Source: Cercospora beticola
Lineage: Eukaryota; Ascomycota; Dothideomycetes; Mycosphaerellales; Mycosphaerellaceae
Reading direction: 5' to 3'
Length of the DNA: 64,000 nucleotides
Assembly: GCF_033473495.1 (NCBI RefSeq)
Contig: NC_088936.1
Span: 496,001-560,000 of the forward strand
Shown: positions 31,151 through 45,190 of the stretch, in pieces
How the letters are laid out: every line of letters begins with the position of its first letter
How positions within the stretch are numbered: position 1 is the stretch's first letter
Notes under the pieces: generated by a model
What the model was told of the DNA's origin: nothing
What the model saw: the letters and a program-made list of their open reading frames with translations, nothing else
Databases searched by the model: none
Position numbers and translations under genes: made by a program

Positions 31151-32455
31151 TCATCGGCCTAGAGGTCCTATTATGCTGCCGACCATCACAGCTGCTTCTC
31201 TCTCCCAGTTTCCCTTCTCGGCCTGGTTCCTAGCTGCGAATTTGCCTCGATAGCCACGATCAACGCATTCACGTACTGCATCTCGAACATGATTTCTGTT
31301 TGATCGCAAAGTTCTCGCGCTCACCCCGCCGCGCGACAAGATGTCTTGAACGCGTGAGGTAAGTTGCGAGGCCATGCTGCGCCAGAAATACGAAGGCAGA
31401 GAGGTGGTTTCCAAATGTCGCAATAGAGGCTCGAGCAAGTTGCCAGTATTCTCCGTATACCGGAGACCAGGATGTGCAGTGGGAGGCTTGACGGTTTCCA
31501 GCAATGCTTCGAGAGCAATGACATTCTGACATCTTGCGGAGACTTCGACCAGGGTCCGGTCTAGCATGGGCAGAGTGGCTAATGCTCTGCTAAGCGCCGC
31601 CAGGCTTGAGGTCAAGGCCGTGTCCAGATAGCCTTTAAGCGCCTGCGTTAACAAGCTTGGTTCGAAGTCCTCCACGCTCACCTTTGTGCCTGGCTTCACC
31701 GGAGACAGCAGGTACAGAGTTTGCATGCTTGCCTCTGATCTGCGTTTCGTCTCCTTCGCCTGTGCGAAAGTCTTCTCGCCAAGAGATGGGCCACCGAGAC
31801 TGCTCATGGAGAATTCTCTCACCACACTCCTGCACTTTTCCAGTAGTGTACGTTCGAGACTGCTGCCGATGTCTTGCCTCACAGATGCTGCAACGCCTAC
31901 TTTTGCCAGCATAACGCCGTCCGGGCCTTGGAAGCACTCTCGCATCTCCAACACTAATCGTGCGGCAGGCACCATAGATCGATACCCACCTCCTGCTCTC
32001 TCCACCTCATCCATCGAGCTTTGTAATTGTCTTCCAAGATTTACCACTCTCTGCACGCCGCGGCCCAGCCTCAACGTCTTCAACATCCTTTCGCTTGCAA
32101 GGCGAACTTCTTCGGCTGCCTCATATCGCTCCACGACTTCTCTCTGCAACCTGGCATAGCTTTCCTTCAGACCTTCAACTTGCTCTTCAACAGTTTCGAG
32201 TACCCGCTTGGCTGCGTCATGTTGTTGCCCGGTGTGCTGAACAATTGGCAGAGCAGATTGTGTAGTAAGAGTGTCGATGTGCGTGTCTACTTCTTGGACA
32301 TCGAACAGCACGCGAGAGAGTGGAGTGGACAGGTCAAGCGGCGTATCGGAGGCATTGTTGGTGGCTAGGACAAGGGTATTGGCGTAGGCTGTGGGTGAGA
32401 AGTCAGGCGCGTGAAGTTCCGGGGAGAGATAAGAGGAAGTTGTATCAGCGGCCAT
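31151..32455 (-). CDS. COG5: Conserved oligomeric Golgi complex subunit 5
   Basis: An intronless gene of 434 residues. COG is an eight-subunit tether that captures vesicles recycling within the Golgi; Cog5 belongs to lobe B with Cog6-8. The N-terminus (SSYLSPELHAPDFSPTAYANTLV) followed by PLDLSTPLSRVLFDVQEVDTHI and a long helical segment with AAKRVLETVEEQVEGLKESYARLQREV is characteristic of the Cog5 N-terminal domain. Later segments such as VLEMRECFQGPDGVMLAKV and the helical C-terminus fit the fungal subunits. Length is near other filamentous fungal Cog5 proteins and shorter than the human subunit. There is no signal or membrane segment, as expected for a peripheral Golgi protein. It is divergent from the Zn2Cys6 activator gene. 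Confidence 0.9.
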   Translation of the reverse strand: MAADTTSSYLSPELHAPDFSPTAYANTLVLATNNASDTPLDLSTPLSRVLFDVQEVDTHIDTLTTQSALPIVQHTGQQHDAAKRVLETVEEQVEGLKESYARLQREVVERYEAAEEVRLASERMLKTLRLGRGVQRVVNLGRQLQSSMDEVERAGGGYRSMVPAARLVLEMRECFQGPDGVMLAKVGVAASVRQDIGSSLERTLLEKCRSVVREFSMSSLGGPSLGEKTFAQAKETKRRSEASMQTLYLLSPVKPGTKVSVEDFEPSLLTQALKGYLDTALTSSLAALSRALATLPMLDRTLVEVSARCQNVIALEALLETVKPPTAHPGLRYTENTGNLLEPLLRHLETTSLPSYFWRSMASQLTSRVQDILSRGGVSARTLRSNRNHVRDAVRECVDRGYRGKFAARNQAEKGNWEREAAVMVGSIIGPLGR

Positions 32456-32790
32456 GGTAGGATCGGCCTCGAGAAGTCATTTGTCGGGTGAGGTTGTCGA
32501 TATCGATGAACTTCCTCCCAACTCCGAACGGTATGTTGGACCCTTGTCTTCACTTCACGTGATGGCGGCCCGAGGCACGCTAACGACTCCATCTCCGTCC
32601 AGGCGGAGTAGGAGCGGACTTCTTCTACAACTCCGCACTGTCTCTGCGCCTTACCCCATTCCTCACCCTCATCGCCGTCGTCTGCCGGTACTGCCTACAG
32701 CGGGCCACGCATCGAAAGACAAAATATATCTCCGGACCCAGGCACCATCTCCGCTGCTGATTACCCTCTCTATCACAAGGCGCGAAACGG
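32456..32790. promoter_or_regulatory. Divergent promoter, COG5 / Zn2Cys6 activator
   Basis: 335 bases separate the two start codons. A TATA-like AAAATATAT lies at 32721-32729, 62 bp before the activator ATG. CGGAG is present in both orientations near 32592 and 32603 and could allow autoregulation by a zinc-cluster protein. This is inference from motif and position only. Confidence 0.4.
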
Positions 32791-35214
32791 ATGCCTGATG
32801 CAATGCCCAAGAGACGGCAACCAATATCCTGCGAGCCATGTCGGACACGAAAAATCCGCTGTTCTCGAGATAGGCAGCCATGCTCGACATGTACGTAGTG
32901 CATGCGCCGCTGAAATGTGGTTCGCTAGTCGTGTCAGCTTTGATAAGTCATTGGTTCCATGACAGCCAGCGATGCTCCATGGATGAGTTGGAACACTCGC
33001 TTACAACTTCATTATTGTGTTAAGGCGTACGGAGGGGCGTCAGCTGCGTTTGGGTAAATCAACCCGTCTCCGCACCACGACCTCAGGATGCGGAGCTGTC
33101 GCCTGCCTCTTCGTCGACGGGTCCTACAAACACGGCATCGAACAATCATTCCGCAGACTTGGCTGAACGCGTTAGCAGACTAGAAGCTATGCTAAGGCAA
33201 CAAAACACGCACAGCTCTGCTCCTCCCTGGTCGAACGATACCAACCAGATCGTTGAACCAGTATCTCCGCCTTCAAGCTTCGATGATCGAGGGCTTGCAC
33301 GATCGAACCGGGATTTAGACGGCACTCTTCACGTTGACGAGAAAGGCTACGTTCGTTTCATTGCAGGCTCGCCGCAATGGCAGTCGTCACGACTCGCATC
33401 GATCGACGTGTCTGCGGGTGTTAGTGGAAGCATTGCCCACTTCCCGATTCACTCGATCAATACAACGTCTATGGAAGAGCTGGTCAGCGCATTGCCATCC
33501 CGTCTGCACTGTGCGGAATTGGTACAGATTTATTTTCAATCATATGCGTCTCTTTTTCATGTTCGTAAGTACAATACGACAGTTCTTTTCAGTCGCTCCG
33601 CAGCCAGATAGGTCCATAGCTTGTGACTTCTGGCTTGCTCAATGACGGCTCCAGAACGACGCACATGCCTCAGCCATCTGTCGACTGACGTGTTTGCCAG
33701 TACACGACCCCACTTTCCGGCGTCAATATGAAGAATTCGAGCAAACTCCTCACCATATCACACTGTCCTGGCTTGCACTCCTCTACGCCATACTCGGCGC
33801 GGCCGTCAATGCGCTCTCGGCCGATAGTCCACTTCTTGACCTCAGTCACAAGCAGCATCCGCTTGACAAGGTAGAAGAGTTGTCATCGCGATATCGAACT
33901 TTGGCAATGAGATGTCTCGAGGCTGACCACTATCTATGGAGACACAATGTCACGACTCTTCAGTCGTTGATTCTGCTGATATATAGCATCAATCATAGCC
34001 ACGGCCAGAGCTGGAACCTCCTTGGCCTCACTCACCATCTGGCGCTCTCGATTGGCTGTCACGTCGACCCAAGTCGCTTGAGCCTCGGTGCTGTACAATG
34101 CGAAGAACGAAGGCGATGCTGGGCCGCGCTCAAGATGCTCTACACACATCAGAATACAGCCATGGGCCACCCCGGGATAGCTCACGCCTACTTCCCATCC
34201 AACTGCCGTGCACCTGCGGACATTGACGATGATAATCTGCATACGGACACGTCCGACGATGCCCTGGAAAGCCTTTCGACCACTGGCGGCCCGACGCAAA
34301 TGACTTATCTTCTGAAAAAGTTCCGACTGTACGATATCTGCACTGATATTTGCGAACATGTTCTATGCAAGAGTTGCGGTCATCTTGCGCAAATACGTCG
34401 CCTCGATGGCGCCATTCAACGAGAACAACGATCATGGGACACACAGTTCTTCGCTATTGCCCGCACTGAGCAACAATTAGCGCCCCACCACAGAGCACAC
34501 GTAAACATTCTGCGATCTTACGCTCATCATCTCACATTATTGTTGCATCAGCAAATTATCCTCAGAACGAGCGACGCTGCGAACGATGAAGATGTCCTGC
34601 GATGGTCAAGCGTCCGTTGCTTGGACGCTGCAATGAGCATTTTGCATGTTCATGCTTATGTGCAGAACGTCCCGGAACTGCAACCTTACCAATGGTACAA
34701 TCATGGACTGGGCAGTTTTCACGCCTTCCATGCTACGGTGGTGCTGGTCATGATGTGCCAAAAAGGCTTGCATCAGAATCGCAAATATGCGATCGGCCCA
34801 GCATTGCGAGACTGCCACGCTCGATTCGCTGGCATGGGTCATCTGAGTCCATTCTGTGCCAAAGCTGCGCCTTTGCTGCAGATGCTCGTAGCTCAATTCG
34901 AGACTGCAGGTCAAATGATTGATCATGGCTCAGAACCCAACCGGAGACTGCAAGGGAGTCTAAATCTCCACCAGGGCAGCGGCACGAGCGATGCACAGAG
35001 GCATACCGCTTCATCGGAATTTGAAAACAACGCTCGTGAGGATTCTGGTGTGGCCGAGGTGCAAAACCTGCTCAATCACGATCCACCAGTCGTGAATGAT
35101 GAAAACATATTAGACTGGAATGAGCTCCTGGCCGAGATTCAGCCACAGCAATGGGTTAGCCCGGCAGTATTTCCACTGGAGCAATGGTTCAACGTGAGCA
35201 ATAATGAACGATGA
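32791..35214 (+). CDS. Zn2Cys6 transcriptional activator with fungal-specific TF domain
   Basis: Three exons, join(32791..32890,33025..33564,33701..35214), 717 residues. The first exon is only 100 bases and encodes most of the zinc cluster. The 134-nt intron splits a cysteine codon, and joining gives C14-x2-C17-x6-C24-x6-C31-x2-C34-x6-C41 (CEPCRTRKIRC...CSTCVRRGVSC). A leucine-rich dimerisation helix follows (LAERVSRLEAMLRQQ). The 136-nt second intron joins SLFHV to LHDPTFRRQYEEF, entering the middle homology domain (about 200-450), including LILLIYSINHSHGQSWNLLGLTHHLA and EERRRCWAALKML. The C-terminal end is acidic and aromatic (ENILDWNELLAEI), as in activation domains. It lies at the left border of a run of catabolic-type genes and is the obvious candidate local regulator. 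Effector unknown. Confidence 0.9.
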
Positions 35215-35665: not shown

Positions 35666-37823
35666 CTACGAGAATGCTTTGAGACTATTGGCAACACCTT
35701 GGACATCTTCGAAAACATGCCAATGGCCAACATTCTGTAAGACAACGACACCCTTGCTGTTCTTCAGCTTCTCGCTGTAGCCCTGGCAAAGTGCCGGAGG
35801 GCTGACCTTATCCTCTGAACCCGTTACAATCAGCGTGTCAGCGGAAATCGCAGATAGATCCAGAGACTCTGTAGCACCAGCCAGCGCATCGCACGCTTTC
35901 GCATATCCCTCAGGATCTTGTGCCAGAAGCGACATGCGCACGGCGCTTATTGCAAGACCATTCTCTGATTGTGTCTTGGCGGAAGTTCCAGCTCCGACAA
36001 CAGCGTCCACGACGCCAGCCATTGTCTTCTGCCGCACGAGCGTAGCACGCGCTTTGTTATTCTTGCTTGCGGCTTCTGGAAGCGGGATCGGCGGAGGCCC
36101 GACGAGGATGAGTTTCTTGACCAGCTGTGGGTTGTCCAAGACGAATCTTATCGCCACGATGCAGCCCATTGAGTGTGCGAAAAGCGTGGCATCGGAGCCG
36201 GGGGCAATCCCAGCATTCTGGAAGACGTTTTTCAGATCGGTTGCGAGTGAGGCTATGGTGATGGTCGATAGCGGCGATGTGGGCGATTGGCCGTGGCCTT
36301 CGAAGTCGAACAGGTGCAGTGCATGGCTTTTGTCTAGGCCGGCGGCTTGAATGAGAGGTGTCCCTGGTCAGAAAAGGTCAAAAGTCAGCTTAGATCTTAC
36401 CAAATTCGAACACGCTGATCGTTGTGCTTACAGTAATCCGCCGTACCGCCAAGGCCATGGACGAAGACAGCTGGTGGACCGTTTTCTGCACCACGGCGTA
36501 GAACATTCAGAGGCTTTCCTCCAATGTCCGTTAGCCCTACTTTCGCATTCAAGCTCTTTCCGGCGTTCGCTACTGGCAGCGCCTTGAGTTGGTTCTGTTG
36601 CACACGCTGCAGAGTTGGGTTGGCGGCAGACTTCGAGGCGATTCTATTAGTGAGGGTGCCCAACCCTTCGATTGAGACTGCAACTTCATCTCCGGGGTTG
36701 AGCTGCAGTTGAGACACAAATGGTTAGCTTACGCCTGGAAGCCGCTGGAACGTCCGTTGCAGCACTGTGGGGTTTCACTCACGTATACCGGTGGGGTTCG
36801 ACCGATGCCAACGCCAGCGGGCTGTGTTCTCAAGTATCAGCAATGGTCTGGATTTTGTTTGGACGTCCGCAAGACTCACTGTGCCTGTGGCCAAGACGTC
36901 TCCTGGCATCAGGGTTTGTCCTTCAGACATCGTCTTGATGAGATAAGGAATGCCTGAGAGACACAGACGTTAGCCACCATCTCAGACAAGCGCTTTACCA
37001 TCTCGTCATTGGTCCGCGGGCTCTAATAGCGTTTTTGTCCTGAATTGCGGCCCCGTCTCTGTCGGCGACACCTACTGAAGATCAGATTATCAGTCGTCGC
37101 ATTTTGCCGCAGGTCACCATTGACTCTGGTCTGTACACGGAGTGCACCCGTGAAGCGATTCGCAGGAATGGCCACCGGACCCTACAACACTTTCACATTA
37201 GCGGAGCCAGTAGTGGACCCCATCGAGTTGCGTCAACCTACCATTGGGCAATAAGTGTCTGGAGACTTCCCGATATAGAATTGCTTATGGTCTCGTTGCC
37301 TTTCTCGGGCTGTCATATCATTGACGATAGTGTAGCCCCAGACATGTTTCATGGCATCCTGTTCCGAGATCTGGAATCCAGGCCTGCCGATTATCACGCC
37401 AAGTTCGCCCTCGAAATCTGCGCTCTGTGTGAAATCTGGATGAGGCAAGATTTCTTCACCGTCTGCAATGATGGATGTGAAACGCTTGGTGAAGATGACT
37501 GGATGGGTGGGTTGGTCCGCTTTGTCCGAGCTGTCGAACCCGGACTTGTTGAACTCGATTGCATGTTCTGCGTAGTTCTTGCCTACGCACAGAATGTCTC
37601 GGCCATTGATGGGAGCAAGGAGCCGGACTGTGTTGCGGGACAGTGGCTCTGAAAATGGAATTATGGTCGACTCGTCCAGGCTGATTACTTCATAAAGGTT
37701 CGAGAGTGGTGTGCCCGAAGGGTAAGCCAGAGGCTGGATCTGATCTCCGTCCAAGCTTCCGATACGCTCGACTCCGAGAGCTGGATCGACGTAGGCGCAG
37801 AACTGGTATTGCTTGGACGACAT
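35666..37823 (-). CDS. Fusion protein: FAH-family hydrolase/isomerase + alpha/beta hydrolase
   Basis: Six exons, complement(join(35666..36363,36432..36702,36783..36821,36880..36953,37076..37181,37242..37823)), all in phase, give 589 residues. Residues 1-290 form a fumarylacetoacetate-hydrolase-type domain (acylpyruvate hydrolases, 2-hydroxyhepta-2,4-dienedioate isomerases, oxaloacetate decarboxylases). It shows GKNYAEHA, metal ligands E138/E140 in DFEGELGV and D169 in VNDMTA, KSPDTYCPMGP, RVNGDLRQ, and the closing PAGVGIGRTPPVY and LNPGDEVAVSIEGLGTLTN. After a linker (about 290-335) comes an alpha/beta hydrolase: oxyanion HGLGG, GHGQSP, nucleophile S422 in AHSMG, D542 in GSEDKVSPP and H571 in VGHWHVFED. 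It is closest in look to 3-oxoadipate enol-lactonases and meta-cleavage hydrolases. The end of the first domain, the linker and the start of the second share one 271-nt exon, so the fusion does not depend on a guessed splice. Likely role: consecutive hydrolytic steps in aromatic or diketo-acid breakdown. Confidence 0.88.
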
Positions 37824-38423: not shown

Positions 38424-39318
38424 ATGTCTTCGAACACATATGACCACGCATCCAAGACAGAGGCGATGTACAGTGAAACAGCGCCCGACAAGTTGGAAAG
38501 ACTGCGCACAGCAGGCGGTCACATCGATGATCGTGATCAACCATCCTTGCCTGTTGTCCATCGCAGCTTCGCCAATCCAGCGCCATTGGGACTACTTTCC
38601 TTCGCGACTGGTCTATTTCTCATCTCCATATACGGTGTGCATGCACGAGCAATCCAGACTCCCAATGTCATGATCGGAGTTCTTATGTTCTTCGGAGGAG
38701 TCTGTCAATTCATTGCTGGAATCATGGTAAGACACCTTCTCCCGAAAACGATCTATGATGGCTACTCTCACTCCAGTCGAGCACTTGAGCTTATACGCGT
38801 TTCTTGTCACAGGAGTTCGTGGCAGGCAATACCTTCGGCGCCACAGTCTTCCCCTCCTACGCCGCTTTCAATTTCAGCTATGCAATGGTCTACATTCCAG
38901 GTACTGGTATCCTCGCTTCGTACACCGACCAAGCGACTGGTCAGATACGTGCAGAGTTCTATGAAGCTCTAGCAATGTACGCATGGGCATGGTTCATTCT
39001 GACAGCTATCTACACCGTTGCCGCAATGCGAAGCTCTTGGGTGTTGTTCGCGACGCTCGCCCTTCTGGACATTGAGCTGTTGTTGCTCGGCGTTGGATAC
39101 ATGATGAACGATGGCGGCATTCTCACAGCGGCGAACTCCATTGGTTTTGTGGTTGCATTTCTGGCTTGTAAGTGATCGATCATCATCAATTTGTCACATT
39201 CAGGCCTTACTGGCTAACACATCCATTACTTGTAGATTGGGCTGGGTGCGCCGGGCTGTTCGCGGGAGGCTTGACTCCGATCAATTTACCAACATTTCCA
39301 ATGTACAAGCAAGATTGA
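38424..39318 (+). CDS. GPR1/FUN34/YaaH-family acetate permease
   Basis: Three exons, join(38424..38726,38813..39167,39236..39318), give 246 residues. Introns of 86 and 68 nt fall at GIM|EFVAGNTF and LA(Y)WAG in phase. The family (yeast Ady2, Aspergillus AcpA) imports acetate and related short monocarboxylates with protons across the plasma membrane. The signature NPAPLGL begins at N51. Six hydrophobic segments follow, with GVLMFFGGVCQFIAGIM, NTFGATVFPSYAAFNFSYA, AWFILTAIYTVAAMRSSW, VLFATLALLDIELLLLGVGY and a final WAGCAGLFAGGL. The N-terminal 50 residues are cytosolic and hydrophilic. The C-terminal tail is short. It is divergently transcribed from the FAH/alpha-beta hydrolase fusion, which suggests joint control and that acetate or a similar acid is part of the pathway. 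Confidence 0.93.
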
Positions 39319-40492: not shown

Positions 40493-42492
40493 ATGGCTCC
40501 AGCACGAGTGGAAGAGCCTCCCAACTCATGGCCAGCCTGGTCATCGGAGAAAAAGAACGACATGACAGACCAAGAGCCAGTGTACAAAGGACGACCTCGT
40601 AATCTGGAAGCGATTGATCAGATCAAATTTGACCCTTCGCTCCAACCGAAGCAATATGAAATGTTTGGGACGCATCCCGATAGCAAGATACTGTTCACAG
40701 ACGTGTAAGATGCTAGCCAGTAGGGATATCACGTACAGCATCGAATGAAGTCGCTGACGAAATGTCCGCAATAGTAACATCCTCGATTCGTCCGGAGCAG
40801 AGCCATATCGAGGAGATGTCCTGATCGAAGGTATTCATTGAATCGCATGGCAACTTGTTGCCTCTCTAAAGGACAGCCACTGACAGTATCCTTGATATAG
40901 GCGAGAAGATCACCCACGTTGGCCAAGTCCCTGACATCGACAACCTCAAATCATCTCCCAAGGTCCGCCACTTTCATGGCCGGGGACGAACACTTATGTC
41001 GGGCCTTGGAGACGCTCATACACATTTCACGTGGAACGGCGGAGATCTTGATCGACTCGGTGATCTCGGCGTAGAAGAACATACACTCTTGACCATGCGT
41101 AGTGCACAATGCTTCCTCGACTCAGGCTATACAATGTGCTTCGGGGCGGCTTCAGCCAAAGATCGACTAGATGTTGTGATTCGCGATGCGATCAATGCGG
41201 GAGACATCTCGGGTCCGAGGTATCTGGCCAATGCAAAGGAGATTGCCAGGCGAGGAGGGGAGTTGGTGGGAGGTATTACCGCATTCGCTGACGGCCCGGA
41301 GGAGATGAAGGAGACGGTGAAGAGGCATGCAGAAGAAATTGGGGCCGATAATATCAAGTTGAGTATGTCTGGGGAGGAGGTAGGTTCTTCGATGTTTGTA
41401 CCTCTTTCTTCCCTTCCAGTGCGCCTGCGTATAGACTTTTCTTTCGACCTGACATGTTCGCTCGGGTAATCTTACTGACAACGAGGTCGCTGCTATAATA
41501 GATCACAGAAATCCGCTCGGCTCAAGACTGCTACTTCACCGATGAAGAAACCGCCGCATGCGTAGAAGAGGGCCACCGTCTCGGCAAAAGACTTTGTGCT
41601 CACGCACGAGCTCGCGACTCGTTGAAGATGTGCGTCAAGCACGGCGTAGACGTGGTATGTGATACTTTGAGCCCCTTCCTCCTGCCAAAACTGACTCCCG
41701 CCACCAGATCTATCATGCCTCATACATTGACGACGAAGGCATGGAAATGCTCGAAAAATCCAAAACAAAGCATATTGTCGCACCAGGGATCAATTGGCTC
41801 TGGGCAACGCTATACGAAGCCGAAGCGTTCGGATATCCACATACCAAAGCCGAACAAGTCGGCTACCGAAAAGAGCTCGATGTCGCCGTAGCTGGTCTGC
41901 GTGAGATGCATCGTCGGGGAATTGTCGTCTTGCCAGGCGGTGACTATGGTTTCGGTAAGCCTTCTCCATCACGCATCTCGACACTCATTCACCAGCGTCA
42001 TTGAGATGCTAACTTTTCAACCAAGCATGGACTCCCCACGGCACCTACGCCCGCGATCTCGCCCACTTCGTTGACCTCCTGAAGTTCACTCCCCACGAAG
42101 CCATCCTCGCTGCCACACGAGGCGTAGCCGCACTCTTCATGCGCGGCCACGAACTGGGCCAGATCAAGCCGGGCTACTATGCCGATTGCATCCTCGTCGA
42201 TGGAAATCCCCTAGAAGATATCACGATCCTCCAAGATCACGATAAATTGAACGTCATCTGCATCAATGGCCGGGTGCATAAAGCCGGAAGAAAAGAATTT
42301 ATCCCGCCGCCTGTGTCGGGACAGGATGGCAATGCGCATGTGATTGTGCCGGATATGGAAGTGCCTGAGGTGAAGAGGGATATGTAAGTTTCACCGGTCG
42401 TCCCTTTCTTGTCTTGATGTGGTCGTTCGCAGTGATTTTTCAGAGCTCACGCTAACGATAATTGTGATCGCAATAGGCAGAAGAATTATTGA
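40493..42492 (+). CDS. Metal-dependent amidohydrolase (imidazolonepropionase/prolidase-like)
   Basis: Seven exons, join(40493..40704,40775..40830,40901..41379,41502..41654,41708..41954,42026..42383,42477..42492), 506 residues. All junctions keep phase; the last exon has only 16 bases (QKNY and stop). Amidohydrolases use a dinuclear or mononuclear metal site in a TIM barrel to hydrolyse amides, lactones or ring C-N bonds. All ligands are visible: H129 and H131 in GLGDAHTHF, K242 in NIKLSMSGEE (the usual carboxylated lysine), H283 in LCAHARA, H303 in IYHASYID and D379 in GGDYGFAWTPHG. The flanking beta-sandwich is formed by ILDSSGAEPYRGDVLIEGEKITHVG and GYYADCILVDGNPLEDI. It resembles cytosolic members annotated as imidazolonepropionase-like or Xaa-Pro dipeptidase-like hydrolases (the latter including ochratoxin-type amidases). 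Sequence alone does not fix the substrate. Confidence 0.93.
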
Positions 42493-42974: not shown

Positions 42975-45190
42975 TCATGCTCCACGACGAGCACCACCAG
43001 TACTCATCAGAGTGATCTTGTTCTTCTTCTTTCCCTTCTTGCCACCAGCAGGTTTGACTTGCACGTTGAGTCCATCCATGCTCGCGGCAAGTGCTTGCTG
43101 AGCATCATGGTCGAGCAAGTCTCTCTCCCAACCTTGCAACCAGCCGTCTTCCTGTTGCGAGAACTGATTGTCTGTGGGCAGATTCGCTGCATCACCCGAT
43201 GCAGGCAACGCCGCAGTGCCCCACACCGTCCGAGGCATACTAGGAGAAGTGCCAGGCGAGGCTAAGCTACCAAAGCCTGGACGATCCGCTCTGGGACTTG
43301 AGCCGGTAGGGATATCGATCTCGCCCGATAGATTTGGCGGCAAAGCAGGCGCAAAGAATTCGTCATTTCTCGTGATGCTTGATCGTCTTTGCTGTCGAAT
43401 GTGCGCGAGCTCACGCTCCTGCGCCTTCTCGATCCGAATGCGTTCTTTCTCTTCTCGGGTCTCCTTTTCATCATTTCGCTTTCTGCGCCTCTCAAGCATC
43501 GGACGGAACTCCTCAAGCACGGAAGCACTGACGACATCTCGCCAGTCGCATTCCAGGAAGCCGACCTCGCAGCCATATGGCAAGTGTCCGAGATATTTGA
43601 CGCGTTTCCGCAAGTCATCATCGACCACATGTCCACTAGAAACGCGCTCAACTCGTGGGAGTATGCTTGATGGGAACGAGTGATAGGACCCAAAGGCTGT
43701 CTTCAAGATCCTGATGTCGAGAGGCGAGAGGTAGAAGTGCTGCAGACCATGGTAGAAGAGGTACTCGTTCGGTTGTGGTTTCTCCGTTTGCCGCTGGCGC
43801 ATCTCAGTAAGAGTTCGGGGTACGTAGGGCCTGTCTTCGAGCACCTGCTCGAGGCTTGAGCTGGCACCTTCTGCTGGAATCGGAGGTTGTGCTTCGGCGT
43901 GTTTCTGCAGATACATATCTGGCACTCCGTCATCGCTCGCATTGAACTGGATCGGTGGGCGACTTGGCGCTGCCTCCTCAGCCGGATCTGGTTTCCGTGG
44001 CTGAGCAGGAGGGTTCCCGATTCCTCGCACCTTCTCCTTTGCCTCCCGGAGAGCCCGTACAGCTCTGCCCGTCCATTGCGTATCCTCTCCGAACATCAGT
44101 TCATCCTCTTTTTCCAGCTGCTGTACTGCGGCAATGGCTTCATCGAATTGCTGCAGCATGTAATCTTCACTACCCTTCATCACTCTCGCGTAGTCCATTA
44201 CTTCGGTCGCGAAGTACCAAGGAATATCGTCTCCCTTTGCGATAACTTCGCCGCTTTCGCGAGGCATTGCCAAAGTCTGACCAGGTCTTCTCTTCACCAG
44301 CCGCAGTACCATGTCTCCTCCTTCACGCGGAGGGTCGTTCTCTTGCCCATCAAACCACCTCACAGGCCGGGTCTCGGAGATATAGATGCTGTCGTAGCAG
44401 ATTGGACACTTCTTCCACTTCGCCTTCTTTTCCGGAGGAGGATTTGAGGCATCTTCAGAATGCATGTACCGGATCAAACACGGCATGCAGAATATGTGCC
44501 CACACTTCGCCATTCGAGGTGCAGTAGGCTCGCCGAGGCAGATCGGGCAAGACGCGTTCTGTGTCTTACTTGAAGCAATGACCTGCAAGACATTATTCCA
44601 GTCCAGGTGCACGTCAGCGTCCTCGGCTTGAGCGTGGTAATCGCCTCTCGGATCGACAATGAAGCGGTAGTTGGCATGTATGTATCTGCACACCGTCAGC
44701 TTGACTTCTCCGATCCGTATGCCATCTTCACGCCTCCCTGAGCTCACCTCGCCTTATCTACTGCATGATAACCACTTCCTAAGCCCCACGTCGCATTGTG
44801 GCGATTGTTACGCCGCGGGCCGTTGTAACTATGTCTGTGATATCGATCGTGCGTGTTTGGTCGCGGTGGCAAAGCGAACTGCATCAAGTGCGTGATGCTC
44901 TGTTGGCCGCGTCGGCCGTGTGGATTCTGCATGCTGAACTCCTCAGCATCTGCATCCTCATCCAACGACCGAAACTTCTTGCTCTTTCCGTGCTTGGGCT
45001 TTGCAGATTGCTGGTTTCGAGGAGCGGCTGGGGACGATCGCGAAGCAAACGCGCCACCCTTTCTTCCGGCCGGAGAGTCCTGGAAGAATTGCTGTGTTGA
45101 CGAAAGCGCGGGACTGATCTGGTTTTGGGTAGCAAGCGATTGGCTTTTGCTGCTGGACTGTCCTGCTTTGATCGAGGGCGGATTCGACAT
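42975..45190 (-). CDS. MAG2: RING-finger E3 ubiquitin ligase, MAG2/RNF10 family
   Basis: Two exons, complement(join(42975..44685,44748..45190)), 717 residues. The 62-nt intron joins VDKAR to YIHANYRFIV in phase. RNF10 and yeast Mag2 ubiquitinate 40S ribosomal proteins of stalled initiation complexes. The N-terminal 150 residues are disordered and basic, with the conserved MQFALPPRP motif. YIHANYRFIVDPRGDY follows, and then a C3HC4 RING from C194 (CPICLGEP, CGHIFCMPCLIRY, KKCPIC). The long middle includes the family block YLFYHGLQHFYLSPLDIRILKTAFGSYHSFPSSILPRVERV and LPYGCEVGFLECDW. The C-terminus ends in a Lys-rich patch. This is a housekeeping gene interrupting the catabolic-type gene run. 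Confidence 0.93.

Follow-up and report, generated by a model that had tools for sequence, protein, structure and literature searches.

A conserved FAH-alpha/beta hydrolase fusion in Cercospora beticola and its probable counterpart, a bacterial three-hydrolase operon

Introduction

A 64,000-nucleotide stretch of the genome of Cercospora beticola, the sugar-beet leaf-spot fungus (contig NC_088936.1, positions 496,001 to 560,000; hereafter the window, to which all coordinates refer), contains at 35666..37823 a gene encoding an FAH-type domain fused to an alpha/beta hydrolase (ABH) domain. The FAH fold of this fusion is shared by YisK of Bacillus subtilis (PDB 8sky, 8sut and 8suu) and by FAHD1, which have acidic metal ligands, a His/Glu pair and a Lys of the same kind, with partly presumed roles. 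YisK and FAHD1 are single-domain proteins, whereas the fusion adds a serine hydrolase. According to PMC12176266, FAHD1 is an oxaloacetate tautomerase and decarboxylase, the K123 residue of which acts on the substrate. The 3-oxoadipate enol-lactonase PcaD (PDB 2xua) is among the nearest solved relatives of the ABH domain, yet the fusion is not PcaD. The PcaCD and PcaDC proteins likewise join an enol-lactonase-like domain to a neighbouring enzyme of the pathway, and the ABH domain matches their PcaD part; their partner domain is a carboxymuconolactone decarboxylase, whereas that of the fusion is FAH. HpaG/HpcE, the isomerase/decarboxylase of 4-hydroxyphenylacetate degradation, is also a bifunctional member of the FAH superfamily, after which several fungal fusion entries are named, but unlike the fusion it comprises N- and C-terminal FAH-type units without ABH. 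Finally, AN2777 and AN2779 of Aspergillus nidulans carry, in PMC5371717, the same domain annotations as the fusion and the amidohydrolase described below, respectively, a likeness by annotation.

For each of the 24 NCBIfam models listed, the fusion protein scores less than the curated cut-off requires. It reaches 96.2 of the 255.85 bits required for PcaD (TIGR02427, on which an Azospirillum relative scores 173.6); 20.8 of 462.15 and 39.5 of 400 bits for the C-C hydrolases BphD (TIGR03343) and HsaD (NF045632); 127.6 of 811 bits for HpaG (NF011750), which makes the HpaG-derived database name misleading; 150.5 of 500 bits for 2,4-didehydro-3-deoxy-L-rhamnonate hydrolase (NF053535); and 102.7 of 430 and 113.3 of 390 bits for the PcaCD and PcaDC fusion models. 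A first-pass annotation of this DNA, made from the letters alone, knew of no characterised protein with this domain order, and the papers listed by searches of the open-licence literature included neither such an enzyme nor any work on the function of the fusion or of the three genes as a set.

Results

The fusion gene and its two active sites

The first-pass annotation described one six-exon gene for two complete enzymes, which is what the exons, the 589 codons and the matches to PF01557 and PF00561/PF12697 indicate. The gene is organised as follows:

35666..37823, minus strand: FAH-ABH fusion gene, six exons, 589 amino acids (gene model, Pfam and fungal relatives)
37823-37242, 37181-37076, 36953-36880, 36821-36783, 36702-36432 and 36363-35666, minus strand: the six exons
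36783..37823, minus strand: exons 1 to 4 with their introns, FAH domain to residue 267, with H87/E90, E138/E140/D169 and K186
36432..36702, minus strand: exon 5, a single frame from the end of FAH through the linker into ABH
35666..36363, minus strand: exon 6, bulk of the ABH domain, with S422, D542, H571 and W572

The five introns (60, 122, 58, 80 and 68 nt) all have GT...AG borders, and the spliced frame comprises 589 codons and a stop. As annotated, a single exon of 271 nt, 36702-36432, runs from the last part of FAH across the linker into the first part of ABH, with no stop in between. The protein has a single PF01557 stretch, a complete FAH domain (residues 77-288; 221.6 bits against a cut-off of 23.9; E 1.2e-65) that places it in the FAH superfamily. 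The ABH domain is also complete (about residues 323-589) and belongs to the alpha/beta hydrolase family, being matched by PF00561 from residue 345 (77.4 bits against 25.8; E 1.7e-21) and by PF12697 from residue 346 (71.4 bits against 26.3; E 2.3e-19), with a Ser-Asp-His triad and an oxyanion HG motif (H349, G350). The residues that had been called intact, namely E138, E140, D169, S422, D542 and H571, are all present at those positions. The Cercospora kikuchii protein P0001 also has 589 residues and is identical to the window protein at 561 of 589 positions; its AlphaFold model displays both folds (predicted local distance difference test, pLDDT, 83.2; predicted template modelling score, pTM, 0.73). 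Because of this near-identical protein, and of the similar-length proteins with the same domains in many fungi, the gene model is not a chance product.

The fusion is widespread in fungi and not unique to C. beticola. Of 7996 proteins scored in a search with fusion residues 270-589, 590 reached E 0.001 or better, and among the 120 matches listed are many full-length fusions of about 590 amino acids from named fungi. Going by these names, we assign the carriers to Dothideomycetes, Sordariomycetes, Eurotiomycetes and others. In an alignment of 50 of the 120 listed proteins, H87, E90, E138 and E140 of the FAH domain are identical in 50/50, as are S422, D542, H571, W572, H349 and G350 of the ABH domain, while D169 and K186 are identical in 49/50, the single miss being P0060, whose gene model is without that stretch. 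The metal ligands, the His/Glu pair and the Lys of FAH are kept in 46/46 bacterial rows, and the H571-W572 pair of ABH in all 61 rows examined. The catalytic roles of H87/E90, K186 and the metal-ligand motif are in part presumed, and K186 presumably corresponds to K123 of FAHD1 by motif rather than by alignment. The invariance of both sites across the aligned fungal fusions suggests that both are under selection. Loss of one active site was considered and ruled out for the window protein and the 50 aligned fusions (one gapped model). The fusion is thus real and conserved, a bifunctional hydrolase both enzymes of which are apparently active.

The bacterial operon

Bacterial and archaeal genomes were scanned with an amidohydrolase alignment, and FAH and ABH were located by tblastn at the best 80 of 541 confirmed loci, a set that leans to actinobacteria and includes near-copies. 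FAH, ABH and amidohydrolase are consecutive on one strand at 65/80 loci; two loci have the order FAH-ABH-ABH-amidohydrolase and five are cut by a contig end. The tandem ABH pair, found in Noviherbaspirillum (L104, 8335-9932; L108, 6460-8058), perhaps reflects a duplication of the second enzyme. At 8 of the 65 consecutive loci, all actinobacterial, FAH and ABH form one open frame:

Fused bacterial loci: Streptomyces hygroscopicus L063, Rhodococcus L066, Nocardia L069 and L071, Williamsia L072, L074, L076 (record marked as unverified contamination) and L088

One of the 48 matches to the fused protein in the genome of Rhodococcus L066 spans both domains. The metagenome protein P0211 (640 aa) joins an amidohydrolase to the start of an FAH; it suggests adjacent genes there and is likely a join made by the gene caller.

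Neighbouring families were counted with a rough gene caller based on a simple rule of G+C content at third codon positions (GC3), so that the counts are approximate. Fourteen families recur in at least 5 of the 80 loci, and for three of these the name comes from inspection by eye alone. A GntR-FCD regulator is present at 48/80 loci and parts of a branched-chain-amino-acid-type ABC transporter occur in 7 to 18 of 80, besides PEP_hydrolase-like (13/80), flotillin-like (13/80), DUF1636 (12/80), Polyketide_cyc2 (10/80) and acyl-CoA ligase-like (5/80) families. The PEP_hydrolase-like (PF09370; e.g. L097, 15735-16571) and flotillin-like genes stand downstream in the same 13 loci, of alpha-, beta- and gammaproteobacteria, and the median position of DUF1636 (e.g. 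L073, 11321-11674; L115, 7637-8032) is just past the amidohydrolase.

The same arrangement is found on plasmids. A tblastn search with the fungal fusion P0032 matched 1396 plasmid records, and in 17 of them a single region spans at least 80% of the query; 12 of these regions were inspected and, one being unannotated, 11 were counted, from a collection whose gene table is incomplete. All 11 have an FAH gene, then a same-strand ABH gene, then a gene for an 'amidohydrolase family protein', and in 2/11 one extra gene lies inside the set. In 10/11 the annotation also has a GntR/FCD-type regulator next to these genes, the exception being Variovorax. On an Alicyclobacillus plasmid a regulator on the opposite strand stands between FAH and ABH; on one of Azospirillum argentinense a DUF1636 gene precedes the amidohydrolase; and on a Priestia plasmid, found through ABH alone, the FAH gene is reversed in direction. 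Besides its FAH, ABH and amidohydrolase genes, the bacterial operon often has a GntR/FCD regulator and a transporter, the type of which varies.

The cluster in the window and in other fungi

The fungal locus also combines the fusion with an amidohydrolase gene (AMH), the counterpart of the third enzyme of the bacterial operon, and with a transporter gene:

40493..42387, plus strand: amidohydrolase gene (AMH)
40661-40704, 40775-40830, 40901-41379, 41502-41654, 41708-41954 and 42026-42387, plus strand: modelled AMH exons, the N-terminal part mapping from 40493
38424..39318, plus strand: Gpr1/Fun34/YaaH acetate-transporter-family (ATO) gene, exons 38424-38726, 38813-39167 and 39236-39318, 246 amino acids

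AMH starts at 40493, 2.7 kb from the start of the fusion gene (35666-37823), and ATO lies in between, so that FAH, ABH and amidohydrolase are clustered here as in bacteria. AMH was found by searching the fungus's own genome with a Corynebacterium amidohydrolase (match at 40897-42312), to which the spliced product is 60% identical, as against 39-47% for four others. The database protein P0126 sets the start at 40493 and, with its ending RDMQKNY, points to one short extra exon past about 42384. Six AMH sites (H129, H131, K242, H283, H303 and D379 in P0126 numbering), which we assume to have metal-type roles, are kept in at least 95% of 104 rows. The closest PDB match of the Azospirillum amidohydrolase is an Xaa-Pro dipeptidase, followed by a weaker match to ochratoxinase; the Corynebacterium protein P0122 scores 207.7 of 500 bits on the Xaa-Pro dipeptidase model NF051886, under its cut-off. 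Peroxisomal targeting signal 1 (PTS1) was also considered; the fusion ends in KAFS and P0126 in QKNY, neither of which is PTS1-like by eye.

The trio of ATO, fusion and amidohydrolase genes is supported indirectly in other fungi. Co-location was scored as identical longest-contig values above 5 kb (103, 107 and 91 values in the three lists) among the 120 matches listed for each of fusion, amidohydrolase and transporter. Fusion and amidohydrolase share 15 longest contigs; the transporter has 14 in common with the fusion and 24 with the amidohydrolase, and 5 occur in all three lists. Species present in two lists with differing longest contigs (Aureobasidium melanogenum, Bipolaris maydis) are mostly multi-strain clusters and uninformative. 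Locus numbers are consecutive in Fusarium nematophilum (transporter 003633, fusion 003634, amidohydrolase 003635) and close in Coniosporium apollinis (02970 fusion, 02971 transporter, 02973 amidohydrolase), while Pycnora is looser (007581 and 007569).

In A. nidulans, AN2777 is annotated as FAA hydrolase family with alpha/beta hydrolase fold and AN2779 as amidohydrolase family, and AN2777, AN2778 and AN2779 are among the 201 transcripts down in napA-deletion conidia, with log fold changes (logFC) of 2.0, 2.0 and 2.2 in the table of PMC5371717; AN2777 was found in no further paper among the open-licence papers searched. An FAH gene of Fusarium verticillioides induced by 2-benzoxazolinone (BOA), FVEG_03394, was considered and set aside, as it is not shown to be the fusion in PMC10512309, where the rows examined for FVEG_03389 to FVEG_03399 include no amidohydrolase.

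Around the set, the Pfam scan covered 20 chosen open reading frames (ORFs) of the 157 stop-to-stop frames of at least 110 aa in the window. On the far side of the fusion from ATO and AMH it placed a candidate regulator:

32803..35214, plus strand: probable transcription factor of the Zn(II)2Cys6 type, with its cysteine-rich motif at 32803 and a Fungal_trans domain within 33646-35211

Among these ORFs the set is flanked by a gene for COG5 at 31154-32476 and one for a RING-finger protein at 42978-44753. Past the latter come a dienelactone-hydrolase-family ORF (PF01738; 45653-46414, plus strand) and a major facilitator superfamily (MFS) ORF (PF07690; 46956-48239, plus strand), which could form a small catabolic group of their own or belong to the cluster as an outlier. 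One dienelactone-hydrolase-family member aside, no 3-oxoadipate-pathway gene was recognised among the 20 ORFs, which do not support a tight aromatic-degradation cluster in the window.

Descent of the fusion

Trees were midpoint-rooted. The joint FAH-ABH tree has 59 rows, two long branches (L077 and the plasmid row of L020) having been removed; the separate FAH and ABH trees were built without 27 near-copy loci and without all loci that have no FAH-ABH directly before the amidohydrolase; the amidohydrolase tree omits L093, a short match. In the joint tree the fungi form one clade (support 100/100), sister to the bacterial fusions (94/96). The FAH-only tree joins the fungi to the bacterial fusions with a support of 85, and the ABH-only tree leaves them unplaced beside both the fusions and Corynebacterium/Arthrobacter (81). 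In the amidohydrolase tree the 20 fungal proteins form one clade, with a support of 100 in the SH-like approximate likelihood ratio test (SH-aLRT); four of these belong to genera of Basidiomycota (Neolentinus, Gloeophyllum) or of the early-branching Pezizomycetes (Pyronema, Rhizina). From these trees, the cluster most likely reached fungi from actinobacteria, with moderate support; FAH and ABH were probably already fused at the transfer, again with moderate support, and a single fusion event appears likely.

Discussion

In our judgement it is probable that the ATO transporter, the FAH-ABH fusion and the amidohydrolase form a compact fungal catabolic cluster, the counterpart of the bacterial operon, in which the fusion couples two steps. 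The transporter would take up a small acid, lactone or amide, or export a product; its family, which we associate with acetate and succinate uptake, presumably suits a small carboxylate. The amidohydrolase would open an amide or lactone bond; the ABH serine hydrolase may hydrolyse an ester, enol-lactone or C-C bond, with a 2,4-dioxo acid as the product; and FAH, which depends on a metal, may then convert this acid, by acylpyruvate-type cleavage or decarboxylation, into a 2-oxo acid and a small carboxylate. The fusion would provide equal amounts of both enzymes and perhaps a shorter path for a reactive intermediate. We infer this order and chemistry. Since the bacterial core comprises three hydrolases, and no redox enzyme among the recurring families recognised occurs in more than 6 of the 80 loci, the compound probably arrives already oxidised; pyrones, tetramic acids and small amides were considered as substrates and none is claimed. 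The two-step channelled activity suggested in the first-pass annotation gains from the fact that bacteria keep the FAH and ABH genes side by side, which makes coupling plausible, while its aromatic framing finds no support.

More broadly, and tentatively, we propose that these genes encode an undescribed pathway with a three-hydrolase core, present as an operon in several bacterial phyla, which may have moved as a unit, FAH and ABH being already joined, from actinobacteria to an ancestor of the filamentous ascomycetes and been kept there as a gene cluster with a fungal transporter. Several observations weigh against these proposals. Eight uncut loci of the 80 (L080, L083, L085, L090, L091, L093, L102 and L107) lack the FAH-ABH pair, only FAH standing directly before the amidohydrolase in L091 and only ABH in L107, which implies that the amidohydrolase is able to work without the pair. 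L080, L083, L085 and L090 are closely related gammaproteobacterial bins, where the amidohydrolase may have a separate use, and L085 has a weak FAH match on the opposite strand. Aldo/keto-reductase-like and short-chain dehydrogenase/reductase (SDR)-like families, assigned by eye, occur in 6/80 loci each, and several plasmid regions carry genes for an SDR, an aldo/keto reductase or an oxidase no more than a few kb away. Beyond the window, the fungal neighbourhood is known from contig matching and locus numbers, not from sequence; the logFC values of AN2777 to AN2779 in the table of PMC5371717 barely exceed the threshold of 2, and their identity was judged from annotation. The step order is guessed from chemistry, and the two domains could act on unrelated compounds. 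The trees bear on the transfer itself, as they leave some room, though we hold it doubtful, for the fungal fusions and the Nocardiaceae-type actinobacterial fusions having arisen independently from an adjacent gene pair. The pair is adjacent at most sampled loci, which would make fusion easy; the amidohydrolase tree sets the fungi sister to the unfused Corynebacterium/Arthrobacter (SH-aLRT 97); for FAH-ABH, a grouping of fungi with Corynebacterium/Arthrobacter is not rejected by the approximately unbiased (AU) test (p 0.109); and the linker seems longer in fungi by eye. Against independent fusions, the FAH-ABH tree unites fungal and bacterial fusions, at a support (94/96) that is itself below the level starred by the tool, and L066, the one bacterial fusion compared in full, has by eye a DKVSP and a GHWH stretch in common with the fungal ABH.

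The other explanations concern what the domains do and whether they belong together. That FAH is a general oxaloacetate decarboxylase like YisK and FAHD1, and ABH a general esterase, with no shared pathway, is in keeping with the top solved relatives, YisK (E 4.3e-70; 42% identity) and a thermophilic esterase; we consider it unlikely, as the adjacency of the amidohydrolase at 65/80 bacterial loci and the shared fungal contigs are hard to square with housekeeping roles. More unlikely still is an aromatic meta-cleavage route in which ABH would be a C-C hydrolase of the BphD/MhpC type and FAH a hydratase or isomerase. The H571-W572 pair, which we assume to be a C-C hydrolase feature, and the weak matches to the HsaD and BphD models speak for such a route, but these matches lie far under the cut-offs, PcaD-type models score higher, and the 14 families that recur in at least 5 of the 80 bacterial loci include none recognised as a ring-cleavage oxygenase. 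In view of this last result and of the missed NCBIfam cut-offs, the initial assignment of the two enzymes to separate steps of aromatic degradation is not supported as worded; the label 'enol-lactonase-like' given to the ABH domain is supported in that its nearest solved relatives include an enol-lactonase. A gene model that wrongly merges two genes or transcripts is conceivable for a window read as DNA alone, but it is highly improbable: the end of FAH and the start of ABH share a stop-free exon, the same architecture is predicted in many fungi, and eight bacterial loci have it as a single open frame. We accordingly rejected an artefact of the gene model.

Returning to the cluster that we favour, the new part is its genomic context, a conserved FAH-ABH-amidohydrolase unit common to bacteria and fungi. 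Together, the fungal fusion and the bacterial operon name three hydrolases that probably share one pathway, for which A. nidulans AN2777 to AN2779 would serve, by annotation, as a model. They also call into question the database names 'bifunctional 4-hydroxyphenylacetate degradation enzyme' and 'isoaspartyl dipeptidase-like'. Such a route may explain the use of a common natural product by soil bacteria and plant-associated fungi, and it is a candidate example of a functional operon that passed intact into eukaryotes.
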